A stretch of 64,000 nt of DNA from Hydractinia symbiolongicarpus (taxonomy: Eukaryota > Cnidaria > Hydrozoa > Anthoathecata > Hydractiniidae): NCBI RefSeq assembly GCF_029227915.1, contig NC_079876.1:29671828-29735827 (forward strand), given 5' to 3'. Within the stretch, counting starts at the first letter, position 1. Every line of letters begins with the position of its first letter. The notes under the pieces are model-generated. The model was not told the origin of the DNA. It did not search any database and saw only the letters and a program-made list of their open reading frames with translations. A program made the translations under genes and the position numbers. This document shows, one piece after another, positions 1-64,000 of the stretch.

Positions 1-126
1 TTATTGGTGCTATTCCATTTCGCCATGTGCGATATTTCACCACAAGGTATCATGTTAAGGCATTTCCACGGTTAAAACTCTCCAAGCGTCCCTCAATCTT
101 CTTATCACACAGGTTAGCCTAGCTAA

Positions 127-209
127 TACCAGAGGTGGGGTTCGAACCCACGCAGACAATCGTCCACTGGAACTTAAGTCCAACGCCTTAACCACTCGGC
201 CAACCTGGT
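127..209 (-). tRNA. tRNA-Leu(UAA) copy
   Basis: Anticodon TAA kept. Three arms carry changes: last acceptor pair broken (ACCAGGT against CTCTGGT), one variable-arm change and an anticodon-stem mismatch. Confidence 0.65.
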
Positions 210-332
210 TAAAATTTCAGGTTAATAAGGTTACTTGATCTTGGAAAACAAGGTATCATGTTAACACATTTCCACGGTTAAAACTCTCCAAGCATCCCTC
301 AATCTCCTTATCACACAGGTTAGCCTAGCTAA

Positions 333-415
333 TACCAGAAGTGGGGTTCGAATCCATGCGGACAATAGTCCATTGGAACTTAAGTCCAACGGCTTAACCA
401 CTCGGCCACCCTGGT
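333..415 (-). tRNA. tRNA-Leu(UAA) copy
   Basis: Anticodon TAA. T-stem has two changes (GAATCCAT on the plus strand) and the D-stem is altered (GGCTTAACC). It lies only 206 bp from the previous copy, in a short unit lacking most of the spacer. Confidence 0.6.
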
Positions 416-785
416 TGAAATTTTAAGTTAATAAAGTTACTTGAACTTGGAAAAAGTACTGGCAATGAATCTTATTATTTTAAATCGCGCAAGAGCATTA
501 CCATTTGACGACCTTCAGATTTTTGAATAATTTGCCCTTTTGATAACTCAACAAAATGAAAGGAACTGCAAAATGGAATGGTAATATGTGGGATTTTCAG
601 TTTGAAAGTTTCAGATATGGAAGGCATTATTGCGTATGGTGAAGTAACGGCTGGTAGAATTATTGGGGCTATTGTATTTTGCCCTGTTGGATAATTCAAC
701 ACAACGTATCATGTTAACACATTTCCACGGTTAAAACTCGCCAAGCATCCCTCAATCTTCTTATCACACAGGTTAGCCTAGCTAA

Positions 786-868
786 TACCAGAGATGGGGT
801 TCGAACCCATGCTGACAATAGTCCTTTGGAACTTAAGTCCAACGCCTTAACCACTCGGCCACTCTGGT
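786..868 (-). tRNA. tRNA-Leu(UAA) with perfect acceptor stem and compensated T-stem
   Basis: Acceptor ACCAGAG pairs fully with CTCTGGT, replacing the usual G-T wobble. The T-stem outer pair is A-T (ATGGG/CCCAT) instead of G-C, so both sides changed. Anticodon TAA. The variable arm has one broken pair. Confidence 0.75.
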
Positions 869-1213
869 TGAAAGTTCAAGTTAATAAGGTTACTTGAACT
901 TGGAAAAAGTACTGGCAATGAATCTTATTATTTTAAATCGCGGAAGAGCGTAACCATTTGACGACCTTCAGATTTTTTAATAATTTTCCATTTTGAAAGC
1001 TGAACAAAATGAATGGAGCTGTAAAAAGGATGGTAATATTTGGGATTTGGAGTTTGAATGTTTGAGATATGGAAGGCATTAATGCACATCGTGAAGTAAC
1101 AGCTGGTAGAACTATTGGGGCTATTCTATTTCGCCCTGTGGGATAATTCAACACAACGTTAAAACTCTCCAAGCATCCCTCAATCTTCTTATCACACAGG
1201 TTAGCCTAGCTAA

Positions 1214-1296
1214 TACCAGAAGTGGGGTTCGAATCCATGCGGACAATAGTCCATTGGAACTTAAGTCCAACGGCTTAACCACTCGGCCACCCTGGT
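1214..1296 (-). tRNA. tRNA-Leu(UAA) copy
   Basis: Duplicate of the copy at 333-415, with the same T-stem and D-stem changes; anticodon TAA. Confidence 0.6.
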
Positions 1297-1666
1297 TGAA
1301 ATTTTAAGTTAATAAAGTTACTTGAACTTGGAAAAAGTACTGGCAATGAATCTTATTATTTTAAATCGCGCAAGAGCATTACCATTTGACGACCTTCAGA
1401 TTTTTGAATAATTTGCCCTTTTGATAACTCAACAAAATGAAAGGAACTGCAAAATGGAATGGTAATATGTGGGATTTTCAGTTTGAAAGTTTCAGATATG
1501 GAAGGCATTATTGCGTATGGTGAAGTAACGGCTGGTAGAATTATTGGGGCTATTGTATTTTGCCCTGTTGGATAATTCAACACAACGTATCATGTTAACA
1601 CATTTCCACGGTTAAAACTCGCCAAGCATCCCTCAATCTTCTTATCACACAGGTTAGCCTAGCTAA

Positions 1667-1749
1667 TACCAGAGATGGGGTTCGAACCCATGCTGACAAT
1701 AGTCCTTTGGAACTTAAGTCCAACGTCTTAACCACTCGGCCACTCTGGT
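1667..1749 (-). tRNA. tRNA-Leu(UAA) with perfect acceptor stem
   Basis: Duplicate of the copy at 786-868, plus one D-stem change (GTCTTAACC). Compensated T-stem and fully paired acceptor stem are retained. Confidence 0.72.
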
Positions 1750-2118
1750 TGAAAGTTCAAGTTAATAAGGTTACTTGAACTTGGAAAAAGTACTGGCAAT
1801 GAATCTTATTATTTTAAATCGCGGAAGAGCGTAACCATTTGACGACCTTCAGATTTTTTAATAATTTTCCATTTTGAAAGCTGAACAAAATGAATGGAGC
1901 TGTAAAAAGGATGGTAATATTTGGGATTTGGAGTTTGAATGTTTGAGATATGGAAGGCATTAATGCACATCGTGAAGTAACGGCTGGTAGAACTATTGGG
2001 GCTATTCTATTTCGCCCTGTGGGATAATTCAACACAACGTATCATGTTAACACATTTCTACTGTTAAAACTCTCCAAGCATCCCTCAATCTTCTTATCAC
2101 ACAGGTTAGCCTAGCTAA

Positions 2119-2201
2119 TACCAGAGGTGGGGTTCGAACCCATGCGGACAATAGTCCCTTGAAACTTAAGTCCAACGCCTTAACCACTCGGCCACCCTAG
2201 T
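2119..2201 (-). tRNA. tRNA-Leu(UAA) copy
   Basis: Anticodon TAA; one acceptor mismatch (ACTAGGG), a G-T wobble in the anticodon stem and an A-C mismatch at the outer T-stem pair. Confidence 0.65.
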
Positions 2202-6972: not shown

Positions 6973-7490
6973 ATAAGAAAGTCGACAGATGTCAATGCTC
7001 TTACTCGATTTAGAATACTAAGATTCATTGGCAGCAGTTTCTCCAAGTTTAAGTAACCTTATTAACCTGATTATTCAACCAGGGTGGCCGAGTGGATAAG
7101 GTGTTGGACTTAAGTTCCAATGGACGCTTGTCCGAGTGGGTTCGAACACCACCTCTGTTATTAGCTAGGTTAACGTTTTTGATAAGATGATTGAAGGATG
7201 CTTGGAGAATTTAAACCTGGAAGTGTGTTTGCCATGACTCGTTCTGGCATAGTATCGAACTTGGAGAGTAGAATAGCTGCAATAGTTGTACCGGCCGTTC
7301 TTTCACAATGCGCAATCATTCCTTCCATATCTCAAATTTTCAAATTCAAAATCCTAAGTATTACCATTCTTTTTTGCAGTTTCAGTCAATTTGTTGAATT
7401 ATCAAAACGGCAAATTATTTAAGAAATAAGAAGATCGACAGATGTTAATGCTCTTACACGATTTAGAATATTAAGGCTCATTGCCAGTAC
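6973..7490 (+). repeat. Inverted array segment
   Basis: About 518 bp are reversed relative to the array. On entering, the text switches from minus-type spacer (CGTGTCATGGCAA) to the reverse complement of the usual tract before a tRNA, passes through a plus-strand tRNA copy and spacer, and returns to normal orientation after CCAGTACT near 7490. The same inversion with near-identical breakpoints occurs at 19331-19848, so it was duplicated after it arose. Confidence 0.85.
7078..7160 (+). pseudogene. tRNA-Leu(UAA)-derived copy, plus strand
   Basis: One of two plus-strand copies. Anticodon TAA and A-box intact. The acceptor has one mismatch near its tip (CTCTGTT), and the invariant G53-C61 pair of the T-arm is lost (TTCGAACACC). 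Confidence 0.7.
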
Positions 7491-7647
7491 TTGCGCATCG
7501 TGAAATAACGGTTTGTAGAATTATTGGTGTTTTTCCATTTTCGCCATGTGCGATATTTCACCACAACGTATCGTGTTAACACATTCCCACGGTTAAAACT
7601 CTACAAGCATCCCTCAATCTTCTTATCACACAGGTTAGCCTAGCTAA

Positions 7648-7730
7648 TACCAGAGGTTGGGTTCAAACCCACGCGGACAATCGTCCATTGGAACTTAAGT
7701 CCAACGCCTTAACCACTCGGCCACACTGGT
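7648..7730 (-). pseudogene. tRNA-Leu-derived pseudogene
   Basis: B-box changed to GGTTTGAACCC and one acceptor mismatch (ACCAGTG). D-arm and anticodon arm are consensus. Confidence 0.62.
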
Positions 7731-8099
7731 TGAACATTCAGGTTAATAAGGTTACTTGAATTTGGAAAGGGTACGGGAAATGAACCTTAGTATTCTAAAT
7801 CGCCCAAGAGCATTACCATTTGACGAACTTCAGATTTTTTAATAATTTTCCATTTTGATAGCTCAACAAAATGAATGGAGCTGCAAAAAAAGGTGGTAAT
7901 ATTTGGGATTTGGAGTTTGATTGTTTGAGATATGGAAGGCATTATTGCGCATCGTGAAGTAACGGCTGGTAGAACTATTGGGGCTATTTTATTTTGCCAT
8001 GTGGGATAATTCAACACAACGTGTCATGTTAACGCATTTCCACGGCAAAACCCTCCAAGCATCCCTCAATCTTCTTATCACACAGGTTAGCCTAGCTAA

Positions 8100-8182
8100 T
8101 ACCAGAGGTGGGGTTCGAACCCACGCGGACAATCGTCCATTGGAACTTAAATCCAACGCCTTAACGACTCGGCCCCCCTGGT
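8100..8182 (-). tRNA. tRNA-Leu(UAA) copy with altered D-arm
   Basis: T-arm, variable arm and anticodon TAA consensus; D-arm shows the GACGACTCGGCCCCCC-type change, and position 32 of the anticodon loop is T. Confidence 0.6.
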
Positions 8183-8553
8183 TGAAATTTCAGGTTAATA
8201 AGGTTATTTTACCTTGGAAAAAGTACTGGCAATGAACCTTAGTATTTTAAATCGTGCAAGAGCATTAACATTTGACGATCTTCTTATTTCTTTGATAATT
8301 TGCCGTTTTGATAATTCAACAAATTGACTGGAACTGCAAAAAGTTATGGTAATATTAGGGATTGTGAGTTTGAAATTTTGAGATATGGAAGGAATAATTG
8401 CGCATTGAGAAATATCGGCTGGTACAACTATTGCAGCTATTATATTTCTCCAGATTTGATACTTCGCCACAAGGTGTCATGGCAAACACATTTCCACGTT
8501 TAAATTCTCCAAGCATCCTTCAATCATCTTATCACCCAGATTAACCTATCTAA

Positions 8554-8636
8554 TACCAGAGGTGGGGTTCGAACCCATGCGGACAATAGTCCATTGGAAC
8601 TTAAGTCCAACGCCTTAACCACTCGGCCACCTTGGT
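8554..8636 (-). tRNA. tRNA-Leu(UAA) copy
   Basis: Anticodon TAA. One acceptor change (ACCAAGG) and the outer T-stem A-C mismatch; otherwise consensus. Confidence 0.68.
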
Positions 8637-9007
8637 TGAAACTTCAGGTTACAAAGGTTACTTGAACTTGGAGAAAGTACTGGCAATGAGCCTTAACATT
8701 CTAAATCGTGTAAGAGCATCAACATCTGTCGATCTTCTTCTTTCTTAAATAATTTGCCGTTATGATAATTCAACAAATTGACTGGAACTGCAAAAAATTA
8801 TGGTAATACTTGGGATTTTGATTTTGAATATTTGAGATATGGAAGGAATAATTGCGCATTGTGAAAGAACGGCTGGTACAACTATTGCAGCTATTCTACC
8901 TCTCCAAGTTCGATACTTTGCCACAACGAGTCACGGTAAACACACTTCCACGTTTAAATTCTCCAAGCATCCTTCAATCATCTTATCAAAAGCGTTAACC
9001 AAGCTAA

Positions 9008-9090
9008 TAACAGAGGTGGTGTTCTAACCCACTCGGACAAGCGTCCATTGGAACTTAAGTCCAACACCTTATCCACTCGGCCACCCTCGT
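9008..9090 (-). pseudogene. tRNA-Leu-derived pseudogene
   Basis: B-box broken (GTTAGAACACC on the minus strand), both acceptor strands altered (ACGAGGG and CTCTGTT). Anticodon TAA. Confidence 0.62.
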
Positions 9091-9430
9091 TGAATATTCA
9101 GGTTAATAAGGTTTCTTAAACTTGGAAAAAGTACTGGCAATGAAGCTTAGTATTCTAAACCGTGTAAGAGCATTGACATCTGTCGACTTTCTTATCTCTT
9201 TAATAATTTGCCGCTTTCATAATTCAACAAATTGGGACTTTGAATTTGAAATTTTGAGATACGGAAGGAATAATTGCGCATCGTGAAATAACGGTTTGTT
9301 GAATTATTGGTGTTTTTCCATTTTCGCTATGTGCGATATTTCACCATAACGTATCGTGTTAACACATTTCCACGGTTAAAGCTCTCCAAGCATCCCTCAG
9401 TCTTCTTATCAGACAGGTTAGACTAGCTAA

Positions 9431-9513
9431 TACCAGAGGTTAGGTTCAAACCCACGCGGACAATCGTCCATTGGAACTTAAGTCCAACGCCTTAACGACT
9501 CGGCCCCCCTGGT
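9431..9513 (-). pseudogene. tRNA-Leu-derived pseudogene
   Basis: T-arm changed (GTTTGAACCTAAC) and D-arm changed (CTTAACGACTCGGCCCCC). Member of the 423-bp subfamily. Confidence 0.62.
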
Positions 9514-9884
9514 TGAAATTTCAGGTTAATAAGGTTATTTGAACTTAGAAAAAGTACTGGCAATGAACCTTAGTATTTCAAATAGCGCAAGAGCATTAAC
9601 ATTTGACGATCTTCTTATTTCTTTAATAATTTGCCGTTTTGATAATTCAACAAATTGATTGGAACTGCAAAAAGTTATGGTAATATTTGGGATTGTGAGT
9701 TTGAAATTTTGAGATATGGAAGGAATAATTGCGCATTGAGAAATATCGGCTGGTACAACTATTGCAGCTATTATATTTCTCCAGATTTGATACTTCGCCA
9801 CAAGGTGTCATGGCAAACACATTTCCACGTTTAAATTCTCCAAGCATCCTTCAATCATCTTATCACCCAGATTAACCTATCTAA

Positions 9885-9967
9885 TACCAGAGGTGGGGTT
9901 CGAACCCATGCGGACAATAGTCCATTGGAACTTAAGTCCAACGCCCTAACCACTCGGCCACCCTGGT
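9885..9967 (-). tRNA. tRNA-Leu(UAA) copy
   Basis: Acceptor stem and anticodon arm consensus; D-arm end reads GCCCTAACC and the outer T-stem pair is A-C. Confidence 0.72.
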
Positions 9968-10338
9968 TGAAACTTCAGGTTACCAAGGTTACTTGAACTT
10001 GGAGAAAGTACTGGCAATGAGCCTTAACATTCTAAATCGTGTAAGAGCATCAACATCTGTCGATATTCTTATTTCTTAAATAATTTGCCGTTTTGATAAT
10101 TCAACAAATTGACTGGAACTGCAAAAAAGTATGGTAATACTTGGGATTTTGAGTTTGAAAATTTGAGATATGGAAGGAGTAATTGCGCATTGTGAAAGAA
10201 CGGCTGGTACAACTATTGCAGCTATTCTACCTCTCCAAGTTCGATACTTTGCCACAACGAGTCATGGTAAACACACTTCCACGTTTAAATTCTCCAAGCA
10301 TCCTTCAATCATCTTATGAAAAACGTTAATCTAGCTAA

Positions 10339-10421
10339 TAACAGAGGTGGTGTTCGAACCCACTCGGACAAGCGTCTAATGGAAGTTTAGTCCAACACCT
10401 TATCCACTCGGCCACCCTGGT
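10339..10421 (-). pseudogene. tRNA-Leu-derived pseudogene with AAA anticodon
   Basis: Anticodon loop reads CTAAACT, giving AAA in place of TAA. The G53-C61 T-arm pair is lost, and the acceptor has one mismatch. Confidence 0.62.
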
Positions 10422-10792
10422 TGAATATTCAGGTTAATAAGGTTACTTGATCTCGGAAAAAGTACTGGGAATGAACCTTAGTATTTTAAATCGTGCAAAA
10501 GCATTAACATCTGTCGATCTTCTTATTTCTTTAATACTTTGCCGTTTTGATAATTCAACAAATTGACTGGAACTGCAAAAAAGTATGGTAATATTTGGGA
10601 TTTTGGGTTTGAAAATTTGAGATATGGAAGGAATAATTGCGCATTGTGAAATAACGGCTGGTACAACTATTGCAGCTGTTCTATTTCTCCAGGTTCGATA
10701 CTTCGCCAGAACGTGTCATGGCAAACACATTTCCACGTTTAAATTCTCCAAGCATCCTTCAATCATCTTATCACCCAGATAAACCTAGCTAA

Positions 10793-10803
10793 TACCGGAA
10801 TTG
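10793..10803. other. tRNA-loss junction, class I
   Basis: The text CTAATACC runs straight into GGAATTGCGC, joining the 3' tip of a tRNA copy to the following spacer. About 142 bp containing the tRNA are missing. The same junction recurs near 12918, 15950, 24026, 27934, 30508 and 33083. Confidence 0.85.
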
Positions 10804-11102
10804 CGCAAGAGCATTACCATTTGACGACCTTCATACTTTCTAATTATTTGCCGTTTTGATAACTCAACAGATTGACTGGAACTGCAAACAAGTATGGTAA
10901 TATCTGTGATTTTGAGTTTGAAAATTTGAGACATGGAAGGAATAATTGCGCATTGTAAAATAACGGCTGGTACAACTATTGCAGCTGTTCTACCTCTCCA
11001 AGTTCGATACTTCGCCACAACGTGTCATGGCAAACACATTTCCACGAATAAAACTCTACAAGCATACCTCAATCTTCTTATCACACAGGTTAGCCTAGCT
11101 AA

Positions 11103-11185
11103 TACCAGAGGTGGGGTTCGAACCCACGCGGACAATCGTCCATTGGAACTTAAGTCCAACGCCTTAACCACTCGGACACCCTGGT
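11103..11185 (-). tRNA. tRNA-Leu(UAA), near consensus
   Basis: Single change from consensus: G10 of the D-stem is T (A-box TGTCCGAGTGG), which breaks a D-stem pair and weakens the A-box. Confidence 0.78.
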
Positions 11186-11555
11186 TGAAATTTCAGGTTA
11201 CCAAGGTTGCTTGAACTTGGAAAACGTACTGGCAATGAACCACAGTATTTTAAATCGCACAAGAGCACTACCATTTGACGACCTTCAGATTTTTCAATAA
11301 TTTGCCCTTTTGATAACTCAACAAAATGAATGGAACTGCAAAATGGGATGGTAATATTTAGGATTTTGAGTTTGAAAGTTTCAGATATGGAAGGCATTAT
11401 TGCGTATCGTGAAGTAACTGCTGGTAGAATTATTGGGGCTATTCTATTTTGCCCTGTGGGATAATTCATAACAACGTATCATGTTAACACATTTCCACGG
11501 TTAAAACTCTCCAAGCATCCCTCAATCTTCTTATCACACAGGTTAGCCTAGCTAA

Positions 11556-11638
11556 TACCAGAGGTGGGGTTCGAACCCACGCGGACAATCGTCTATTGGA
11601 ACTTAAGTCCAACGCCTTAACCACTCGGCCACCCTGGT
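11556..11638 (-). tRNA. tRNA-Leu(UAA), near consensus
   Basis: Single change, in the variable arm (GTCTATT on the plus strand). Stems, boxes and anticodon intact. Confidence 0.87.
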
Positions 11639-12009
11639 TGAAATTTCAGGTTACCAAGGTAGCTTGAACTTGGAAAACGTACTGGCAATGAACCTCAGTA
11701 TTCTAAATCGCGCAAGAGCACTACCATTTGACGACCTTCAGATTTTTCAATAATTTGCCCTTTTGATAACTCAACAAAATGAATGGAACTGCAAAATGGG
11801 ATGGTAATATTAAGGATTTTTGAGTTTGAAAGTTTCAGATATGGAAAACATTATTGCGTATCGTGAAGTAACGGCTGGTAGAATTATTGGGGCTATTCTA
11901 TTTTGCCCTGTGGGATAATTCATCACAACGTATCATGTTAACACATTTCCACGGTTAAAACTCTCCAAGCATCCCTCAATCTTCTTATCACACAGGTTAG
12001 CCTAGCTAA

Positions 12010-12092
12010 TACCAGAGGTGGGGTTCGAACCCACGCGGACAATAGTCCATTGGAACTTAAGTCCAACGCCCTAACCACTCGGCCACCCTGGT
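12010..12092 (-). tRNA. tRNA-Leu(UAA), near consensus
   Basis: Variable-loop change (ATAG) and one D-arm change (GCCCTAACC); T-arm and acceptor consensus. Confidence 0.8.
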
Positions 12093-12463
12093 TGAAACTT
12101 CAGGTTACCAAGGTTACTTGAACTTGGAGAAAGTACTGGCAATGAGCCTTAACATTCTAAATCGTGTAAGAGCATCAACATCTGTCGATATTCTTATTTC
12201 TTAAATAATTTGCCGTTTTGATAATTCAACAAATTGACTGGAACTGCAAAAAAGTATGGTAATACTTAGGATTTTGAGTTTGAAAATTTGAGATATGGAA
12301 GGAATAATTGCGCATTGTGAAAGAACGGCTGGTACAACTATTGCAGCTATTCTACCTCTCCAAGTTCGATACTTTGCCACAACGAGTCATGGTAAACACA
12401 CTTCCACGTTTAAATTCTCCAAGCATCCTTCAATCATCTTATGAAAAACGTTAATCTAGCTAA

Positions 12464-12546
12464 TAACAGAGGTGGTGTTCGAACCCACTCGGACAAGCGT
12501 CTAATGGAAGTTAAGTCCAACACCTTATCCACTCGGCCACCCTGGT
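12464..12546 (-). pseudogene. tRNA-Leu-derived pseudogene
   Basis: Anticodon TAA, but position 37 is C and the G53-C61 pair is lost (AACACC). A sister of the 10339 copy without its AAA change. Confidence 0.62.
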
Positions 12547-44646: not shown

Positions 44647-44686
44647 AAATCAGATTCACACATATCACACAGGTTAGCGTAGCTAA

Positions 44687-48491: not shown

Positions 48492-48847
<356 letters not shown>

Positions 48848-51120: not shown

Positions 51121-51390
51121 TGAATTATCAGGTTAATAAGGTTACTTGAACGTGGAAAAAGTATTGGCAATGAACCTTAGTATTCAAAGTCGGGCAAGAG
51201 CATTGACATCTGTCGACCTTCTTATTTCCTTAATAATTAGCCGCTTTGATGCCTCAACAAATTGACTGGAACTGCAAAATGGGATGGTAATAATTGGTAC
51301 TTTGGATTTGAAATTTTGGGATATAGAGGGAATAATTGCGCATCGTGAAATAACGGCTGGTAGAATTATTGTAGCTATTCTATTTCCCCA

Positions 51391-51677
51391 GATAAAAATA
51401 AATAAATTCTATTTCCACAGATAAAAAAAGTCACACTATTTCTAGGTCCCTGAGTTTAAGGGAAAAGTATAACTAACAAAGAGAGTCAAAAGGTGTATAA
51501 GACAGTACAGTGAAGGCTGTACCAATCCGGTAAACCAGCCCTACCAGTTCAAAACTTGCTGTGAAAGTGAGAAATTATAACCGGAAAGGCTGTAACCGGT
51601 AATCAGCCCTACCAGCTTATTAACATTTGCTGTGAAGTTTTGGTTAGAGTTGAATTGGTGAGCTTTGTCCTTAAACT
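51391..51677 (+). promoter_or_regulatory. 5' UTR of the CR1-like element, with internal duplication
   Basis: Contains two imperfect copies of about 55 bp, 51513-51567 and 51586-51640, each reading AAGGCTGTA...CAGCCCTACCAG...TTTGCTGTGAA. Repeated 5' UTR monomers act as internal promoters in some non-LTR elements; that role here is inference. The first 30 bp also repeat the target-like text ATTCTATTTCC-CAGATAAAA twice, 29 bp apart. Confidence 0.65.
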
Positions 51678-52916
51678 ATGTCTGCTTTCAAATCTAAATG
51701 TGAAATACCAGCTAGACGAGAAAATAGACCAACCTGGTATAAAACTCACGTAAAGCTGAATGAAATTTTGAAGAGTCGTAAACCCGAAGTAATTTTAATT
51801 GGTGACTCCCTTGTGTCTAATTTGTCAAGGTACAATGCTGTATGGGACAACTACTTCACACCACTCAATACCACCAACCTTGGTATTGGTGGGGACAAGG
51901 TAGAAAATGTATTATGGCGAGCTTTAAATACCAACCTTCCATCATCCTGTAAGACTGTAGTCATTCTTTGTGGTACCAACAACCTACATAACAGTGTACC
52001 TAAAGACATTGCGGATGGTGTAACATCTATAGGTATCGCGCGTCGTAAGAAAAAAGCAAACTTGAGGATTATTGTGTGTGGAATTCTACCTCGTGATTTC
52101 CATATTTCTAACTTATGGAGAAAAATAGATAATGTCAACTGTTCTTTGAGTAAAATTTGTACAAAGAAAAACCTTGAGTTTTTAATGCCAGAAACGGATT
52201 GGGTATGTAGAGACAATACTCTAAATATGTCTCTGTACTATGGGGATTGCTTACATCTAGTCAAGAAAGGTAATGAAAAGTTGGCCTTATCTATTACTTC
52301 GGCCATCAAGATAAACGCTAGTAGGATAAATGTTTGCACCAGTGAACATAACTGTAAAAAGATGAACAATACAACCAAAATACCATTTATATTTCATGAA
52401 TGTGATTATGTTCATCAACCTCCAGTAAGTGCACAAACTGAAATTCCTATTAGATACGAAAAAAGGCTGAAAAAGAAACGCGAAAAAACAGTAAAACTAA
52501 AAACTGTGAAACGAAAAACTAGTGAACCTACTCGTAAAAAGGTACCAACAACGACAAGTAATACGGAACTTAACAACTTGTTTCGTGATAAACTAACACA
52601 AGGTAAAAGGAAAACGCAAACCAAAATTTTTAATTTTTATTTATTTTTTAACATAATTTTCTGTTTGTTTTTTATTAACTGTTCAATTTCAATTTTTGAA
52701 AATATTAAGCCTGAATTTGTAAATAGCACTATATTAAATAGTAAGACAATTTTACCTGTTCATAAATTATTATTCTCACCTTTTTATATTTATAATCAAA
52801 CCTTTGACGGTTTGAAAGGAGAAAAAACAGTATTAACCTGCAGAAAGAACTGGCCAATAACTATGCAAACATCTACATTCCTGAAAATATTTTTATATTT
52901 TTCGTCTTCATCATAG
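51678..52916 (+). CDS. ORF1 protein with SGNH (GDSL-like) hydrolase domain
   Basis: 412 residues. An SGNH-fold esterase-type ORF1 is known from CR1-clade retrotransposons, where it is thought to act on lipids or membranes of the retrotransposition complex. Visible motifs: block I IGDSL with nucleophile S44; block II GIGGD at 69-73 with the oxyanion glycine; block III CGTNN at 98-102 with N101; block V DCLH with D190 and H193. All catalytic positions are present. Residues 255-317 are very basic (likely nucleic-acid binding), then a hydrophobic stretch near 318-340 could be a membrane segment. No PHD or zinc-knuckle domain is seen. The ATG at 51678 is chosen because it precedes the SGNH core by about 40 residues. 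Stop TAG at 52914. Confidence 0.9.
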   Translation: MSAFKSKCEIPARRENRPTWYKTHVKLNEILKSRKPEVILIGDSLVSNLSRYNAVWDNYFTPLNTTNLGIGGDKVENVLWRALNTNLPSSCKTVVILCGTNNLHNSVPKDIADGVTSIGIARRKKKANLRIIVCGILPRDFHISNLWRKIDNVNCSLSKICTKKNLEFLMPETDWVCRDNTLNMSLYYGDCLHLVKKGNEKLALSITSAIKINASRINVCTSEHNCKKMNNTTKIPFIFHECDYVHQPPVSAQTEIPIRYEKRLKKKREKTVKLKTVKRKTSEPTRKKVPTTTSNTELNNLFRDKLTQGKRKTQTKIFNFYLFFNIIFCLFFINCSISIFENIKPEFVNSTILNSKTILPVHKLLFSPFYIYNQTFDGLKGEKTVLTCRKNWPITMQTSTFLKIFLYFSSSS

Positions 52917-52933
52917 TTAACTTTCTTAAAGTT

Positions 52934-55900
52934 ATGAGCTGTAGAAAGAGAAACTTATTGCTTGCATCAGCTGGTTGTTTCTTTGAAATTGCCATAGTTA
53001 CACTTGTTGTACATAGTTATCACAATGAAGTTTGTAAATACTCCAAACTTGAGCGTTGTAACAAATCATCTTTCTTCGTGCCTGAATCTGTAGCTCTTTG
53101 TAACGAAATTACTAATAAGAACTTAGAAACTAACATCAAGTACTATATGTTGTCTTTTCTTGCTTTAAGCAGGAAAAACCAGACAAACTATCTTTGTTCA
53201 TTGATTCTTCTTTCTGGTGACATAAGTCTAAACCCTGGCCCTCCTGTGGATATGACAACTGTGAATGAGGACTGGAACGTGTTCAAGAAGCGAGGGTTTC
53301 ATATGGCTCATGTCAACATTAATTCGCTTTTACCTAAAATTGATGAACTTAGGGCAATAGCGTTCTCAACTAAAATAGCTATTATTGGTATAACAGAATC
53401 TAAACTAGATAACACTGTAACAGATTCTGAGGTATCTATTGAAGGCTATAACCTCCTTAAATGTGACAGAAACAGGCATGGAGGAGGTTTTGCTTGCTTT
53501 ATTAGAAATGATATTTGTTACAATTCTCATAAGCGGCTTTCAGAAAATTTGGAATGTGTCATGTTTGATGTTTTATTTCCTAAAACAAAGCCTTTCACTG
53601 TTGGAGTGTTTTACAGTCCACCAGATCAAAATAATTTTGTCAATAATATTTCAGATGAATTTACTACATTAGATTTTGATGAGAAAGAATTCTATCTCTT
53701 GGGAGACTTTAATATCAATACTCTTTGTAATGGTAGAAGTATTTTTAAAATGAATAAGACAGCACTTAAGAGTGATCATGTCTCTGGATTGCAAAAGCAA
53801 TATGTAGAATTTTGTTCGCTTTATGGCCTTAAACAATTGATTGTTGAGCCTACAAGGGTAACTTGTGCTACTGCAACAGTTATTGACCACTTTTTAACAA
53901 ATTGTGTTGGTAAAGTTTCTCAAAGTGGAGTTTTAAATGTTGGACTATCAGATCACCAAATGATTTTCTGCACCAGAAAAGTCAAAAAAGTCAAGTTTAA
54001 TACCCACAAACATATCAAATTTCGATCTTTTAAAAACTACACAAAGGAACAGTATCAGGGTCTCCTAAGGGATACAAACTTTCCAAATTATAATGAGTTT
54101 ACGGACATTGATCTGGCCTACTCTGATTTTTTGACAAAACTAATGTCAGTAATAGATACTATAGCACCTACTAAAGAGGCCAGAATTAAATGCAACTCCC
54201 AGGAATGGTTTGATGGTGAGATTGCAGACAAGATTGCTACTAGAGATAAACTTTTTAAAAAGTTTAAGAAGTCAAAATTACAAATTGATTCTGACCTCTG
54301 GAATGAAGCAAAATTTGATCAATAAAAAGAAAAAAGAATACTATAAAAACAAAATAACAGAAAACACAGGTAAGCCTAAGGAACTATGGAAGACTCTAAA
54401 GTCTATGGGACTTGACAACTCAAAGAAGTCAGATCCGAACTACTGTCTAAAGGATGAGGATGCCTTACATTTTGATACAAAATCAAAACTAGAGATATTT
54501 AGGAACTTTTTCTCTGGTCTAGCAGATGGGCTGCTTCAAAATCTTCCTAAGCCCTCAAATAGATTTGGAATAAATGCTGTCATCTTATATTACAAATCGC
54601 TAAACATTGGAAACAAGATATTCAATTTTCAGCAAGTCTTAGAAGAAGATGTGCTGAATTTGCTGAATGATACTAGTACAACAAAAGCACCAGGACTTGA
54701 TACTATATCTGGAATTTTCTTGAAGGATGGTGCTGATGTTCTTTGCAGACCAATAACTCAATTATGTAATCTTTCTATCTCACTGTCATCTTTCCCTAGT
54801 GAATGTAAGATAGCTAAACTTAAGCCACTATATAAGAAGGGATCAAGAACTGATCCAAAGAACTACCGCCCTATATCTTTGCTTCCTCATTTTTCTAAAA
54901 TTATTGAAAGAGTGGTCCATAACCAAACACAAGCTTTCTTAGACGAAAACAATATATTATTAAAATTTCAGTCTGGCTTTAGAAGCTGTCATTCAACAGA
55001 TTTTTGTCTATCATATATACATGACAAAATTTCAAAAGGTTTTGATGCAGGCTTGCTGTCTGGTATGATCCTCATTGACCTACAAAAAGCTTTCGATACC
55101 ATCAACCACTCCATACCTTTGGAAAAATTAGGAACTCTTGGATTTTCAAATGAAGTAATTCTTTGGTTCAGGTCTTACCTTGCAAACAGAACATTTTGTG
55201 TGTCAATAGATAACTTATCATCTAATCCAGGTAAACTGGAATGTGGTGTTCCCCAAGGTTCTATCTTGGGTGCACTTCTGTTCTTACTTTATGTAAACGA
55301 TATGCCACAAGCTTTAGTACAATGTGATCTTTTTCTCTACGCAGATGATTCATGTCTCTTATTTCAACACAAAGACATAACTGAGATGGAAAATGCTCTT
55401 AATACAGACTTCAGTAATTTATGTGATTGGTTTGTGGACAACAAACTCAGCATACACTTTGGTGAAGATAAAACTAAGTCTATTCTTTTTGCCTCCAGGG
55501 GAAAAATTAAGAAAGCAGAAAAACTTAATATTTCCTACAATGGAGTAGAAATCAAGCAGCATACGAAAGTTGAATATCTTGGTTGCATCTTTGACCAATC
55601 ACTGTCTGGTGAGTCAATGGCCTTACATGTGATTAACAAAATTAATAGCAAAATTAAATTTCTTTATCGTCAAAGCTCATTTTTGAACAAGGATCTGCGA
55701 CGACTTCTTTATAACTCTTTAATTCAACCACATTTCGACTATGCCAGTACTGTGTGGTATCCAAACCTGACAAAAGTTTTAAAAAAGAAGCTCCAGGTTG
55801 CTCAAAACGAATGTGTTCGCTTCTGTTTACAAAAAAGTAGCAGATCACATGTAGGTGCTACGGATTTTAAGGAAATAAATTGGCTACCAGTTGGCGAAAG

Positions 55901-56210
55901 GTTTAAAGTATGCGTAAACAATCATGCATATAAATTTTTTCAGAAAAAATGTCCTCTGTACATGTCTGATGTATTTATTCCATCAAGTCATAGAAGAGCT
56001 TTGACTCGTTCATCATTCCAGAGGCTTGAACAATCTTGTGTAAAAACATCCCAAGGTCAACAGTGTCTTTCCTACCTTGGACCCTCCTTATGGAATACTC
56101 TTCCTGAGGGTCTTAAAAGATCTAGTACTACACACAGTTTTAAACACAACCTAAAAAAGCACTATTTTGATGTTATAACAAGAAGGGACTCAGATGATTT
56201 TGTGAATTAA
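52934..56210 (+). pseudogene. ORF2 polyprotein: 2A-like motif, endonuclease and reverse transcriptase, one frameshift
   Basis: Frame 1 runs 52934-54325 (463 codons), frame 2 continues to the stop at 56210; they overlap around 54210-54325 and a one-base frame change near 54300-54320 (A-rich) separates them. N-terminus is hydrophobic (about residues 8-27). SGDISLNPGP at 94-103 matches 2A-like ribosome-skipping motifs. The APE-type endonuclease follows: HVNINS near 126-131, ITESK with E155, GDFN 257-260, LSDH 338-341. In frame 2 the RT shows NYRPISLLP, DLQKAFDTINH, GVPQGSILGALL and the catalytic YADD at 55338-55349. A C-terminal region follows with no RNase H seen. If the frameshift is real it inactivates the RT; a programmed +1 shift or sequencing error is possible. 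Confidence 0.88.
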
Positions 56211-56488
56211 ATTCATATGATCTTTTGATAATCCTTTCGTTTTCGTTTTGCTTATCTTTTTTTTTTCTATAAGGGTAGAAATGGACCACAATGGAAATCT
56301 CGCCTTGGCTTGTTTTGTGTTATCCAGCCATCAAACATATCAACACTCAGGAAAATTGCATTTAATTTTTTTTATATTTTTTATGATACATTTTAATATT
56401 ATATATAGTTTATTATTTTATTTATTTGTTTTCAATTTCTTTTTCTCTGTAAATATTTTTAACGATTTTATAATGATGGCAAATATAA
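56211..56488 (+). other. 3' UTR of the CR1-like element
   Basis: A+T-rich. GGACCACAA at 56283-56291 can pair with TTGTGTTATCC at 56315-56325 (two unpaired bases), with an inner GCC-TT-GGC turn. This could be the 3' stem-loop that the element's RT recognises. The remainder is T-rich with no gene. Confidence 0.6.
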
Positions 56489-56505
56489 CTTACTTACTTA
56501 CTTAC
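56489..56505 (+). repeat. TTAC-type microsatellite tail
   Basis: Four ACTT/TTAC repeats immediately before the right target flank, the usual short tandem tail of CR1-like elements. Confidence 0.8.
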
Positions 56506-56609
56506 CCAAGTTCGATACTACGCCACAACGTGTCATGGCAAACACATTTCCACGTTAAAATTCTCCAAGCATCCTTCAATCATCTTATCACACAGGTTAA
56601 TCTAGCTAA

Positions 56610-56692
56610 TACCAGAGGTGGGGTTTGAAACCACGAGGACAATTGTCCATTGGAATTTAAGTCTAATGCCTTAACCACTCGGCCACCCTGGT
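56610..56692 (-). tRNA. tRNA-Leu(UAA) copy
   Basis: Anticodon TAA; T-arm GTTTGAAACC change breaks the B-box; anticodon and D stems each have a mismatch. Acceptor consensus. Confidence 0.58.
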
Positions 56693-57039
56693 TGAAAACT
56701 CACGTTAGTAAGGTCACTTGAACTTGAAAAAATTACTGCCAATGAACCTTAATATTCTAAATCGTGTAAGAGCACTAACATCTGTCGACCTTCTTATTTC
56801 TTCAATAATTTGCCGCATTGATAATTCATTAAGTTGACTGGACCTGCAAAATGTATGAAATTTTGGGGATATGGAAGGAATAATTGCGCATCGTGAAATA
56901 ACGGCTGGTTGAACTATTGTAGCTATTCTATTTCTCGAAGTTCGATACTTTGCCACAACGTGTCAGGGTAACATATTCCCACGTTTAACATTCTCCAAGC
57001 ATCCTTCAATCATCTTATTACACAGGTTAATCTAGGTGA

Positions 57040-57122
57040 TGCCAGAGGTGGGGTTCGAAACCACGCTGAGAATTGTCCATTGGAACTTAGGTCAAACGCC
57101 TTAAACACTCGGTCACACACGT
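57040..57122 (-). pseudogene. tRNA-Leu-derived pseudogene
   Basis: U33 is C, acceptor ACGTGTG, T-stem mismatch, D-loop change. Similar to 51038 and 58155. Confidence 0.56.
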
Positions 57123-57492
57123 TGAATTATCAGGTTAATAAGGTTACTTGAACTGGGAAAAAGTACTGGCAGTGAACCTTAGTGTTTTAAGTCGTGTAAG
57201 AGCATTGACGTCTGTCAACCTTCTTATTTCTTTAATAATTTACCACTTTGATAATTCAACGAATTGACTGGAACTGCAAAAACGGATGGTGATATTTGGG
57301 ACTTTGAATTTGAAATTTTGAGATATGGAAGGAATAATTGCGCATCGTGAAATAACGGCTTGTTGAATTACTGTAGCTATTCTGTTTCTCGAAGTGCGAT
57401 ACTTCGCCACAACGTGTCAGGGTAACACATATTCACGCTTAAATTCTCCAAGCATCCTTCAATGATCTTGTCACCCAGATTAAACTAGCTGA

Positions 57493-57575
57493 TACCAGAG
57501 GTGGGTTTCGAACCCACGCGGACAATTTTTCATTGGAACTAAAGTCCAACGCCTTAACCACTTGGCCACCCTGGT
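57493..57575 (-). tRNA. tRNA-Leu body with UUA (ochre-type) anticodon
   Basis: Loop CTTTAGT with paired stem; T-stem change (GTGGGTTTCG on the plus strand), variable arm AATTTTTC, one A-box change. Acceptor consensus. Confidence 0.6.
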
Positions 57576-58154
57576 ATAACTTTCAGGTTAATAAGTTTAC
57601 TTGAAGTTGGAAAAAGTACTGGAAATGAACCTTAGTTTTCTAAATCGTGAAAGAGCATTAATGTCTGTCGATCTTCTTTTTTCTTTAACAATTTGCCATT
57701 TTGATAATTCAACAAATTGACTAGAACTGCAAAAAAGTATGGTAATATTTGGGATTTTGAGTTTGAAATTTTGAGATATGGAAGGAATAATTGCGCATGA
57801 GAAGTAACGGGTGGTACAATTATTGCAGCTATTCTATTTCTCCAGGTTCGATACTTCGCCACAACGTGTCATCTAAATCGTGTAAGAGCATTAACATCTG
57901 CCGACCTTCTTATTTCTTCAATAATTTGCCGCATTGATAATTCATTAAATTGACTGGACCTGCAAAATGTATGAAGTTTTGAGATATGGAAGGAATAATT
58001 GCGCATCGTGAAATAACGGCTGGTTGAGTTTTTGTAGCTATTCTATTTCACGAAGTTCGATACTTCGCCACAACGTGTCATGGTAACACATTTCCACGTT
58101 TAACATTCTCCAAGCATCCTTCAATCATCTTATTACACAGGTTAATCTAGGTGA
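57576..58154. repeat. Fused tRNA-less unit
   Basis: Near 57872 the text CACAACGTGTCAT joins directly to CTAAATCGTGTAAGAGC, skipping a tRNA copy and its flanks. Otherwise ordinary spacer. Confidence 0.72.
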
Positions 58155-58237
58155 TGCCAGAGGTGGGGTTCGAAACCATGCTAAGAATTGTCCATTGGAA
58201 CTTAGGTCAAACGCCTTAAACACTCGGCCACACACGT
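58155..58237 (-). pseudogene. tRNA-Leu-derived pseudogene
   Basis: Same variant group as 57040: U33C, acceptor ACGTGTG, degraded T-stem. Confidence 0.56.
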
Positions 58238-58800
58238 TGAATTATCAGGTTAATAAGGTTACTTGAACTGGGAAAAAGTACTAGCAGTGAACCTTAGTGT
58301 TTTTAGTCGTGTAAGAGCATTGACATCTGTCAACCTTCTTATTTCTTTAATAATTTACCACTTTGATAATTCAACGAATTGACTGGAACTGCAAAAAGAG
58401 ATGATAATAATTGGGACTTTGAACTTAAAATTTTGAGATATGGAAGGAATAATTGCGCATCGTGAAATAACAGCTTGTTGAATTACTGTAGCTATTCTGT
58501 TTCTCGAAGTTCGATACTTCGCCGCAACGTGTCATGGCAAACACATATCCACGTTGAAATTGTCCAAGCATCCTTCAATCATTTTATCACACAGGTTAAT
58601 TTTTGGGATGTTGAGGTTGAAATTTTGAGATATGGAAGGCATAATTGCGCATCGTGAAGAAACGGCTGGTAGAATTATTGGTGCTATTTCATTTCGCCAT
58701 GTGCGATACTTCACCACAGTGTATCATGTTAACACATTTCCACGGTTAAAACTCTCCAAGCATCCTTCAATCATCTTATCACACAGGTTAATCTAGCTAA

Positions 58801-58883
58801 TACCAGAGGTGGGGTTCGAACCCAGGAGGACAATTGTCCATTGGAATTTAAGTCTAACGCCTTAACCACTCGGCCACCCTGGT
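58801..58883 (-). tRNA. tRNA-Leu(UAA) copy
   Basis: Acceptor and D-arm consensus; T-stem and variable-arm changes (CCCAGGAGGAC), anticodon-stem mismatch. Preceded by a tRNA-less fusion near 58598. Confidence 0.66.
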
Positions 58884-59229
58884 TGAAAACTCATGTTAGT
58901 AAGGTCACTTGAACTTGAAAAAATTACTGCCAATGAACCTTAATGTTCTAAATCGTGTAAGAGCATTAACATCTGTCGACCTCCTTATTTCTTCAATAAT
59001 ATGCCGCATTGATAATTCATTAAAATGACTTGACCTGCAAAATGTATGAAATTTTGAGATATGGAAGGAATAATTGCGCATCGTGGAATAACGGCTGGTT
59101 GAATTATTGCAGATATTCTATTTCTCGAAGTTCGATACTACGCCACAACGTGTCATGGCAAACACATTTCCACGTTAAAATTCTCCAAGCATCCTTCAAT
59201 GATCTTATCACACAGGTTAATCTAGCTAA

Positions 59230-59312
59230 TACCAGAGGTGGGGTTCGAACCCAGGAGGACAATTGCCCATTGGAGTTTAAGTCCAACGCCTTAACCACTC
59301 AGCCACCCTAGG
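59230..59312 (-). tRNA. tRNA-Leu(UAA) copy
   Basis: Acceptor CCTAGGG has mismatches; T-stem CCCAGGAGG; position 37 is A and 38 is C. Anticodon TAA. Confidence 0.6.
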
Positions 59313-59683
59313 TAAAATTTGAAGTTAGTACGGTCACTTGAATTTGCAAAAAGTACAGGAAATGAACCTTAGTATTCTAAATCGAACAAAAGCATTACCG
59401 CTTGACGACCTTCTTATTTCTTTAATACTTTCCCGTTTTCATAAATCAACAAATTGACTGGAACTGCAAAAAAGGATGGTAATATTTGGGATTTTGAGTT
59501 TGAAATTTTGAGATATGGAAGGAATAATTGCGCATCGTGAAGTAACGGCTGGTAAAATTATTGGGGCTATTCCATTTTGTCATTTTCCAAATTTCACCAC
59601 AACGTGTCATGTTAACGTATTTCCACGGTTAAAACACTCCAAGCATCCTTCAATCATCTTATCACATAGGTTAACCCAGCTAA

Positions 59684-59766
59684 TACCAGAGGTGGGGTTC
59701 GAACCCACGCAGACAATCGTCCAATGGAAATTAAGTCAAACACCTTAAGCACTCGACCACTCTGGT
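59684..59766 (-). tRNA. tRNA-Leu(UAA) copy with perfect acceptor stem
   Basis: Acceptor ACCAGAG pairs fully with CTCTGGT; T-arm consensus. Anticodon-stem mismatch (TTTGA), D-arm and A-box changes. Confidence 0.64.
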
Positions 59767-60133
59767 TGAAAATTCAGGTTACCAAGGTTACTTTAACTTG
59801 TAAAATGTACTGGAAATGAACCTTAGTTTGCCAAGACGTGCAAGAGCAACATCTGTCGACGTCCTTATTTCTTTAAGAATTTTCCGTTTAGATAATTCAA
59901 CAAATTGACTAGAACTGCAAAAATGTATGGTAATATTTGGGATTTTGAGATTGAAATTTTGAGATATGGAAGGAATAATTGCGCATGAGAAGTAACGGCT
60001 TGTACAACTATTGCAGCTATTCTATTTCTCCAGGTTCGATACTTCGCACCAACGTGTCATGGCAAACACATTTCCACGCTTAAATTCTCCAAGCATCCTT
60101 CAATCATCTTATCACCCAGATTAGCCTAGCTAA

Positions 60134-60216
60134 TACCAGAAATGGGATTCGAACCCACGCAGACAGTCGTCCAATGGAACTAAAATCCAACGCCTTAACC
60201 ACTCGGCCACCCTGAT
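60134..60216 (-). tRNA. tRNA-Leu body with UUA (ochre-type) anticodon
   Basis: Loop TTTTAGT gives UUA. T-stem has two changes, variable arm CGCAGACAGTCG, acceptor ATCAGGG. Confidence 0.58.
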
Positions 60217-60586
60217 TGAAATTTCAGGTTAATAAGGTTATTTGAATTTGGAAAAAGTACGGGAAATCAACCTTAGTATTCTAAATCGAACAAGAGCATT
60301 ACCATTTGACGACCTTCAGATTTTACAATAATTTGCCGTTTTGATAACTCAACAAAATCAATTGGACTTCAAAAGGGGATGATAATATTTTAGATTTGGA
60401 GTTTGAACTTTTGAGATATGGAAGGCATAATTGCCCATCGTGAAGTAACGGCTGGTAGAATTATTGGGGCTATTCTATTTCGGCATGTGAGATACTTCTC
60501 CACAACGTTCCATGTTAACACATTTCCGCGGTTAAAACTCTCTAACCATCCTTCAATCATCTTATCCCACAGGTTAACCTAGCTAA

Positions 60587-60669
60587 TACCAGAGGTGGGG
60601 TTCGAACTCACGCGGACAATCGTCCATTGTAAATTTAGTCCAACGCCTTAACCCCTCGGCCACCCTGGT
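60587..60669 (-). tRNA. tRNA-Leu-derived copy with AAA anticodon
   Basis: Loop CTAAATT gives AAA; anticodon stem has one mismatch (TTACA), T-stem one (GAACTCACG). Acceptor consensus. Confidence 0.57.
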
Positions 60670-61037
60670 TAAAATTTAAGGTTAATAAGGTTACTTGACT
60701 TGGAAAAAGTAGTGGAAATGAACCTTAGTATTCTAAGACGTGCAAGAGCATTACCACTTGACGACATTCAGATTTTTCAATAATTTGCCATTTTGATAAC
60801 TCAACAAAATGACTGGAACTGCAAAAAGGAATGGTAATATTTGGGACTTTGAATTTGAAGTTTTGGGATATAGAGGAAATAATTGCGCATCGTGAAATAA
60901 CGGCTGGTAAAATTATTGTAGCTATTCTATTTCTCCAAGTTCGATACTACGCCACAACGTGTCATGGTAACACATTTCCACGTTAAAATTCTCCAAGCAT
61001 CCTTCAATCATCTTATCACACAGGTTAATCTAGCTAG

Positions 61038-61120
61038 TAACAGAGGTGGGATTCGAACCCACGAAGACAATTGTCCATTGGAACTTAAGTCTAACGCCTG
61101 AACCACTCGGCCAGCCTGGT
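61038..61120 (-). tRNA. tRNA-Leu(UAA) copy
   Basis: T-stem GTGGGATTCG, variable arm GAAGACAATTG, D-loop and anticodon-stem changes, acceptor ACCAGGC. Anticodon TAA. Confidence 0.6.
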
Positions 61121-61486
61121 TGAAAATTCATGTTAGTAAGGTTACTTGAATTTGCAAAAAGTACGGGAAATGAACCTTAGTTTTCTTAGACGTGCAAGAG
61201 CATTTACATCTGTCGACGTCCTTATTTTCTTAATATTTTCCCGTTTTCATAATTCAATAAATTGACTGGAACTGCAAAAAGGGATGGTAATATTTGGGAT
61301 TTTGAATTTGAAATTTTGAGATAAGGATGGAATAATTGCGCATCGTGAAGGCTGGTAGAATTATTGGGGCAATTCTATTTTGCCATTTTAAAAAGTTTCC
61401 CCACAACGTGTCATGTTAACGTATGTCCACGGTTAAAACACTCCAAATACCTTCAATCACCTTATCACACAGGTTAACCCAGGTAA

Positions 61487-61569
61487 TACCAGTGGTGGGG
61501 TTCGTACCTACGCGGACAATCGTTCATTGGAACTTAAGTCCAATTCCTTAACCACTCGGCAACACTGGT
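61487..61569 (-). pseudogene. tRNA-Leu-derived pseudogene
   Basis: T-loop changed (TTCGTACC on the plus strand), D-stem lost (CAATTCC), acceptor ACCAGTG. Anticodon TAA. Confidence 0.57.
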
Positions 61570-61939
61570 TGAAATTTTAGGTTACCAAGGTTACTTGAGC
61601 TTGGAAAAAATACTGGTAATGAACCTTAATATTCTAAATCGTGTAAGAGCATTAATATCTGTCGATCTTCTTATTTCTTTAACAATTTTCCTTTTAGATT
61701 ATTCAACAAATTGACTAGAACTGCAAAAAAGTATGGTAATATTTGGGATTTTGAATTTAATATTTGTGATATGGAAATAATAATTGCGTATCGTGAAATA
61801 CCGGCTGGTAGAATTATTTGGGCTATTCTATTTCGCCATGTGGGATAATTCAACACAAGGTATCTTGTTAACGCACTTCCACGGTTAAAACTCTCCCAGC
61901 ATCCTTCAATCATATTATCAAAAACGTTAGCCTAGCTAA

Positions 61940-62022
61940 TAGCAGGGATGGGGTTCGAACCCACTCGGACATTCGTCCATTTGAAGTTAAGTCCAACGCA
62001 TTAACCACTCGACCACCCTGGT
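61940..62022 (-). tRNA. tRNA-Leu(UAA) copy
   Basis: T-loop and B-box core kept; acceptor CCCTGCT, variable arm, D-stem (GCATTAACC) and anticodon stem each changed. Confidence 0.58.
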
Positions 62023-62391
62023 TGATAATTCTGGTTAACAAAGTTACTTGAATTTGGAGAAAGTACGGGAAATGAACCTTAGTATTCTAAATCAACCAAG
62101 AGCATTACCATTTGACTAACTTCAGATTTTTCAATAATTTGCCATTTTGTTAGCTCAACAAAATGAATGGAGCTGCAAAAAGGGATGGTAATATCTGGGA
62201 CTTTGAGTTTGAAAGATTGAGATATGGAAGGTATTATTGCGCATCGTTAAGTAACGGCTGGTACAATTATTGCAGCTATTCTATTTCTCCAGGTTCGCTA
62301 CTTCGCCACAACGTGTCATGGCAAACACATTTCCACGCTTTTTTCTCCAAGCATCCTTCAAACATCTTATCACCCAGATTAACCTAGTTAA

Positions 62392-62474
62392 TACCAGAGG
62401 TGGGGTTCGAAACCAGGCGGACAATTGTCCATTGGAACTTAAGTCCAACGCCTTAACCACTCGGCCACCCTGGT
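62392..62474 (-). tRNA. tRNA-Leu(UAA), best copy in the right part
   Basis: Acceptor, D-arm and anticodon arm consensus. Only the T-arm (GAAACCAGGCGG on the plus strand) and variable loop differ. Confidence 0.72.
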
Positions 62475-63012
62475 TGAAATTTCAGGTTACCAAGGTAACT
62501 TGAACTTGGAAAAAGTACTGGCAATGAACCTTAATATTCTAAGTCGTGTACGAGCATTGACATCTGTCGACCTTCTTATCTCTTTAATAATTTGCCGCTT
62601 TGCTAATTCAACAAATTGATTGGAACTGTAAAAAGGGATGGTAATTTTTAGGACTTTGAATTTGAAATTTTGAGATATGGAAGTAATAATTGCGCATCGT
62701 GAAAAAACGGCTGGTAGAATTATTGTGGCTAATCTATTTCTCAAATTTGATCCTTCGCCACAACGTGTGATGGCAAACACATTTCCACGTTGAAATTCTT
62801 CAAGCATCTTTCAATCATCTTATCAGACAGGTAATTTTTGGGATGTTAAGGGATAATTACGCATCGCGAAGTAACATCTGGTAGAATTACTGGTGCTATT
62901 CCACTTCGCCATGTGCGATACTTCACCACAACGTATGATGTTAACACATTTCCACCGTCAAAACTCTCTAAGCATCCCTCAATCTTCTTATCACACAGGT
63001 TAACCTAGCTAA

Positions 63013-63095
63013 TACCATAAGAGGGGTTCGTACCCACCCAGACAATGGAGCAATCGAACTTAAGGCCAACCTCATAACCACTCGTCCATCCTGGT
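63013..63095 (-). pseudogene. tRNA-Leu-derived pseudogene
   Basis: Acceptor, T-arm (TTCGTACC), variable arm and D-stem all degraded; anticodon TAA. Confidence 0.55.
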
Positions 63096-63464
63096 TGAAA
63101 TTTTAGGTTAATAAGGTTACGTGAATTTGGAAATAGTACGGAAATTAACCTTAGTATTCTAAATCGAACAAGAGCATTTCCAATTGACGACTTTCAGATT
63201 TTTCAATAATTTGCCATTTTGATAGCTAAACAAAATGAATGGAGCTGCAAAAAGGGATGGTAATATTTGGGATTTTGTGTATGAAATTTTGAAATATGTA
63301 AGGGATAATTGCGCATCGTGAAATAACGGCTTTTAGAATTATTTGTGCTATTCCATTTCACCATGTGCGATACCTCATCACAACGTCTCATGTTAACACA
63401 TTTCCACAATTAAAACTCTCCAAGCATCCCTGAACCCTCCTTTCACACAGGTAAGCCTAGCTAA

Positions 63465-63547
63465 TACCAGAGGTGGGGTTCGAACCCGCGCGGACAATCG
63501 TCCATTGCAACTTAAGTCCAACGCCTTAACCACTCGGCCACCCTGGT
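63465..63547 (-). tRNA. tRNA-Leu(UAA), near consensus
   Basis: Two changes: T-stem CCCGCG (plus strand) and an anticodon-stem mismatch (TTGCAAC). Boxes, acceptor and anticodon intact. Confidence 0.74.
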
Positions 63548-63917
63548 TGAAATTGCAGGTTATAAAGGTTGCTTGAACTTGGAAAAAATACTGGTAATGA
63601 ACCTTAATATTCTAAATCGTGTAAGAGCATTAATATCTGTCGATCTTTTTATTTCTTTAACAATTTTCCTTTTAGATTATTCAACAAATTGACTAGAACT
63701 GCCAAAAAGTATGGTAATATTTGGGATTTTGAATTTAATATTTGTGATATGGAAATAATAATTGCATATCGTGAAATACCGGCCGGTAGAATTATTTGGG
63801 CTATTCTATTTCGCCATGTGGGATAATTCAACACAAGGTATCTTGTTAACGCACTTCCACGGTTAAACCTCTCCAAGCATCCTTCAATCATATTATCAAA
63901 AACGTTAGCCTAGCTAA

Positions 63918-64000
63918 TAACAGGGATGGGGTTCGAACCCACTCGGACATTCGTCCATTTGAAGTTAAGTCCAACGCATTAACCACTCGACCACCTTGGT
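63918..64000 (-). tRNA. tRNA-Leu(UAA) copy at window edge
   Basis: Close relative of 61940-62022 with ACCAAGG acceptor. Its 5' end coincides with the last base of the window, so its leader is not visible. Confidence 0.56.

Follow-up and report, generated by a model that had tools for sequence, protein, structure and literature searches.

How does an array of more than a hundred copies of a single transfer RNA (tRNA) gene hold its sequence together, and are its copies working genes or a satellite in which genes are dying? The question is raised by a 64,000-nucleotide stretch of Hydractinia symbiolongicarpus DNA (contig NC_079876.1, positions 29,671,828 to 29,735,827; "the window" in what follows, with coordinates counted from its first letter), in which units bearing a gene for tRNA-Leu(UAA) follow one another head to tail. 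We think it likely that this is a tandem non-coding RNA (ncRNA) array whose copies evolve in concert, the left part being, to judge from its sequence, probably live and the right part decaying. What was observed directly comprises the units, their grouping into blocks of higher order, decay at the right end and, on the left, a tRNA and flanking sequence of lowered diversity. The array is real, and the phenomenon is already known in kind, in print, and is not specific to Leu-UAA.

The array and its units

A search with nhmmer, whose 82-nt probe was taken from the window itself (cut-off E<=1e-3), located 117 tRNA-Leu(UAA)-like copies; two of them (at 7078 and 19435) lie on the plus strand and the other 115 on the minus strand. 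The total reproduces exactly the count given in a first-pass annotation of this DNA. That annotation had also described head-to-tail units of ~453 bp, and the spacing is indeed mostly 450-455 bp, with recurrent variants of 205-206 bp (three cases), 422-431 bp and 762-764 bp (seven cases), plus some others; one of the 762-764-bp spacings, when aligned, turned out to hold a partial unit without a tRNA. Each unit is made up of the tRNA gene, a trailer of ~50 nt running to a T4 stretch, and a spacer of ~370 nt (the 453-bp unit minus the 83-nt tRNA); the first T4 stretch starts 50-59 nt past the tRNA in 76 of the 117 copies, and the guanine plus cytosine (GC) content of the window is 38%. Two probes made from the spacer only gave 124 and 128 matches against the 117 tRNAs, so the claim that nearly every unit carries a tRNA holds, and the excess corresponds to about 7 to 11 units without a recognisable one. 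The tandem ncRNA arrays of Hydractinia consist of tens to hundreds of very similar copies of a single ncRNA gene at even spacing, a description that the present array fits with its 117 copies at ~453 bp.

ARAGORN called 101 tRNAs (92 Leu(taa), four aaa, three tta and two tac). With Rfam RF00005, 100 matches reached the gathering score (29 bits); 40 of these had at least 50 bits, and the best had 64.1. The first description would have been refuted if nearly all copies had proved to be low-scoring pseudogenes, which is not borne out by 100 such matches for 117 copies. Comparison of the copies also confirmed that the 83-nt tRNA is identical in seven of them (starting at 13681, 14135, 16712, 17166, 18946, 29149 and 31724), each scoring 60.4 bits in Rfam; all seven have the consensus sequence, the first of them spanning 13681-13763 on the minus strand.

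The array reaches both ends of the window, and the idea that it runs unbroken from 1 to 64,000 has to be amended: two long interspersed nuclear elements (LINEs) and a 345-bp (AAT)n tract interrupt it. Its left part (1-41225) consists of ~453-bp units on the minus strand and continues beyond the left window end; it includes two inverted 520-bp units on the plus strand, one at 6973-7492 with its tRNA copy at 7078-7160, the other at 19330-19849 with its copy at 19435-19517. The array continues on the minus strand at 44666-48272, where two short spacings of 205 bp occur (46501/46707 and 47614/47820). Decayed parts follow, again on the minus strand, at 48273-51385 and at 56506-64000, the latter ending at the window edge. 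The (AAT)n microsatellite (48502-48846) lies within an array unit of the first of these.

Beyond the single unit there is a higher-order structure, with duplications of 5.4 kb at 95.0% identity (offset 17,142; 7491-12921 against 24633-30057), 5.0 kb at 95.6% (offset 13,231), 4.5 kb at 96.8% (offset 3,032; 10804-15268 against 13836-18297) and 4.1 kb at 95.1% (offset 15,016). These four duplications and the decay of the right edge bear out the satellite-like behaviour that had been attributed to the array. Repeats this long are hard to assemble, and one may therefore ask, as the first-pass annotation did, whether the copies were simply multiplied through misassembly. We find this extremely improbable: the copies differ throughout (88 distinct tRNA sequences among the 117 extracted), the higher-order duplicates are 95-97% identical and not identical, the LINEs, the microsatellite and the inverted units provide landmarks, and tRNA arrays are also present in a separate H. 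echinata assembly and in Nematostella, a point argued by the authors in the passages on arrays of PMC11067881.

Condition of the tRNA copies

For analyses by unit we used 113 full units; of the 117 copies, this omits the inverted pair and one copy at each window end. Most copies are mildly damaged: all 24 stem pairs are intact in only 18 of the 113 units and at most one pair is broken in 49, while 104 units still have the TAA anticodon, 84 an A box, 76 a B box and 60 both boxes. We also applied a gene checklist that asks for both boxes, the TAA anticodon, a terminal A, an ungapped sequence and no more than one broken pair. Thirty-one units pass it, 15 of which have no broken pair, and 82 fail; it is thus a minority of the units that carries a class II cloverleaf with a UAA anticodon and A and B boxes. 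All 31 are found among the 92 units left of 48 kb and none among the 21 to the right, so that the decayed part at 48273-51385 has no unit passing (Fisher p 0.0008, a value that is descriptive because the 48-kb cut was picked after viewing the alignment).

Thirty-one passing copies within 64 kb might be read as an amplifier for UUA decoding, in which selection for translation demand would have raised the copy number of this isoacceptor. This was one of the interpretations put forward initially, and it is weakened by the occurrence of the same array pattern across the genus; we consider it very unlikely. The other part of that interpretation, a tRNA-Leu(UAA) tandem array that behaves like a satellite, is supported. 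A further initial suggestion was a source of short interspersed nuclear elements (SINEs), which would be recognised by scattered insertions bearing a tail and target duplications; inside the window the copies stand head to tail, the two inverted units excepted.

Altered anticodons occur in nine of the 113 units, in bodies that otherwise align to tRNA-Leu. According to ARAGORN and the alignment they are AAA in four copies (10339, 35205, 36112 and 60587), TTA in three (50414, 57491 and 60134) and TAC in two (46706 and 47819). The three copies with a TTA anticodon would decode the stop codon UAA.

Diversity within the units

We expressed diversity as the ratio of a region to the far spacer, with intervals from 200 bootstraps in blocks of five units and a left/right split at 48 kb; units were located via their tRNA, and the counts omit units that have lost it. 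The ratio for the tRNA is 0.53 overall, 0.45 (0.40-0.51) on the left and 0.82 (0.70-0.87) on the right, the spacer itself having a diversity of 0.173 upstream and 0.177 downstream (113 units). A per-site test of tRNA against spacer gave p 0.013 (70 non-redundant units, with sites treated as independent), and among the 350 windows of 83 nt in the unit the tRNA block comes close to the lowest diversity, with 18 windows equal or lower and the minimum starting 8 nt further on. Deletions within the tRNA were seen in 3 of the 113 units, against 8, 5, 39 and 8 in four spacer windows of the same size, a comparison that is biased by finding the units through their tRNA. The copy at 18946-19028 has retained the exact consensus tRNA despite a spacer difference of 13-14% from the other six exact copies.

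The ratio of tRNA to spacer differences varies with the distance between units: it is ~1.4 for units with nearly identical spacers, 1.0-1.1 in the next class and 0.52-0.55 for the most distant. These values come from split halves, since sorting pairs by the very spacer distance to be reported introduces a bias; the pattern held after the split. Similarly, 31 mutual nearest pairs have 0.014 differences per site in the tRNA and 0.012 in the spacer. A ratio of at least 1 between near pairs and of about 0.5 between distant ones means that recent changes are unfiltered and old ones filtered.

It is when one asks what does the filtering that several results weigh against selection in any simple form. 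The 52-nt trailer has a ratio of 0.55 on the left and 0.62 on the right (the 50 nt upstream of the tRNA have 0.67 and 0.92), and since the trailer is low on both sides while the right-hand tRNA is not, local exchange is at least as good an explanation as selection acting on the tRNA, if not a better one. Broken pairs are not rarer than expected at random in the 70 non-redundant units, with 168 observed against 175.3 +- 9.7; the same is true of each part, with 90 against 98.1 +- 7.4 on the left and 78 against 77.1 +- 6.4 on the right. Damaging alleles make up 58 of 92 at one to three copies and 27 of 48 at four or more (p 0.47), with no fall as frequency rises, and the stems are not less diverse than the loops (0.130 against 0.113). 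For purifying selection on the cloverleaf, then, there is a diversity about halved on the left, yet pair-breaking is random and common variants are no poorer in damaging alleles; we find nothing that points directly to selection on the structure of the tRNA. Exchange focused on the tRNA together with its neighbouring sequence would account for reduced old diversity without structural bias at least as well as selection on each copy.

These same observations bring in another explanation, namely a structural satellite with a dead or dying passenger tRNA, the low diversity of which would be due not to function but to exchange with its centre in the tRNA region. The random level of pair-breaking, the independence of the damaging fraction from allele frequency and a trailer almost as conserved as the tRNA all agree with it, as do the ratio of 1.0-1.4 between close relatives, where the tRNA differs at least as much as the spacer, and the rarity of units with every stem pair kept. 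It accounts less well for seven identical copies with 60.4 bits, for a left-part tRNA diversity about half that of the spacer, for the scarcity of deletions in the tRNA (with the bias already mentioned), and for the fact that, in the passages on arrays of PMC11067881, arrays of the same kind span all amino acids in the genus. On balance we regard such a passenger as unlikely. We also entertain, as a tentative and rather doubtful proposal, a self-renewing satellite in which copies would decay freely while intact ones would be re-seeded by exchange focused on the transcription unit of the tRNA; since nine of the 113 units already have changed anticodons, such a satellite could be a nursery of altered tRNAs.

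The scenario that we favour, concerted evolution of a partly live array, would run as follows. A unit of ~453 bp, with its tRNA, its trailer and its spacer, would have multiplied into a head-to-tail series, in which blocks of several units would then have been duplicated as repeats exchanged with one another. A minority of the left-part copies may be transcribed by RNA polymerase III and supply tRNA-Leu(UAA), and redundancy would free single copies to decay, while unequal exchange and gene conversion, together with selection on the whole array, would hold the tRNA sequence against drift. Exchange would in this way re-seed the left part; the right would lie largely beyond its reach.

The trailer (13622-13680, for example) deserves mention for itself, being conserved nearly to the level of the tRNA on the left and still conserved on the right. 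We considered a stable fold extending beyond the tRNA and rejected it, as the sequence of tRNA and trailer, taken from one copy, showed no more stable a fold than its shuffled versions (z -0.63).

The inserted LINEs and the arrays known elsewhere

Both insertions are non-LTR (long terminal repeat) retrotransposons with Pfam matches and boundaries set by eye. LINE-A (41226-44665, minus strand) has an endonuclease and a reverse transcriptase, each in an open frame of its own, and LINE-B (51386-56505, plus strand) has a GDSL-type open reading frame, an endonuclease and a reverse transcriptase, likewise in separate frames; LINE-B also carries a GDISLNPGP stretch, which presumably resembles 2A-like peptides. 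LINE-A is inserted in the trailer just past the 3' end of a tRNA, on the same strand as the tRNA, which might suggest that tRNA genes are targeted, but LINE-B sits in far spacer, and in the stretches compared neither element showed a target duplication of at least 6 bp; we therefore do not retain targeting. Among the protein matches listed (the best 120 of 5447 and the best 120 of 1470), the LINE-B reverse transcriptase shares 501 of 528 gap-free residues with an H. symbiolongicarpus protein (P0002; 620 columns, 92 gaps), and LINE-A matches another protein of that species (P0125) at 98% over 33% of the query and a protein fragment (P0121) at 98% over 83%; one of the LINE matches listed (P0048) bears the label of a bacterial metagenome-assembled genome.

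Judged by these LINE matches, the array most likely comes from the same animal as, or a close relative of, the one whose arrays are already published. In their passages on the subject, Schnitzler et al. 2024 (PMC11067881) report tandem ncRNA arrays, tRNA included, in H. symbiolongicarpus and H. echinata, find tRNA, 5S and U5 arrays also in Nematostella and not in other cnidarian genomes, and regard tRNA arrays as unusual except in Entamoeba, naming one example from mammals; homogeneous tandem tRNA gene arrays are also termed unusual in the part of PMC4041453 that deals with them. The repeat table of Kon-Nanjo et al. 2023 (PMC10411563) gives, in its first column (483 Mb, which should be H. symbiolongicarpus), 8,667,551 bases or 1.79% of "Small RNA", a figure that fits large ncRNA arrays, although the relevant passages of that paper do not mention such arrays. 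The higher-order blocks, the decayed edge and the share of damaged copies described here are absent from the passages on Hydractinia arrays in PMC11067881.

The nearest other cases in the literature, as far as the passages concerned allow a comparison, are three. Entamoeba (PMC2652664) shares the long tandem tRNA arrays, for which its authors deem concerted evolution most likely, but its units have up to five tRNA genes, some with 5S RNA, where ours have one gene, and in E. histolytica and E. dispar short tandem repeats lie between the genes of the units. The human and mouse repeat at 1q23.3 (PMC4041453) also has tRNA genes repeated in tandem, a tRNA-Leu among them, but its unit is GC-rich, 7.3 kb long and has five tRNA genes, against one gene in 453 bp in the present window. 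The tRNA-Cys cluster of Arabidopsis thaliana (PMC10701932) shares the arrangement of one tRNA gene per repeat unit of ~0.4 kb; it is small, with four genes, against more than 100 copies here. An upstream-flank motif had 0 matches in a collection of genome contigs and a tRNA motif 0 in one of viral contigs, results to which we give little weight, the collections being non-animal.

In the passages cited, PMC11067881 states that the significance of the Hydractinia arrays is unclear without functional data. What this locus brings to the question is a measured case of damage load, of decay on the right compared with the left and of higher-order structure, in which private variants are plentiful enough for tRNA sequencing to address the question of which copies are in use.

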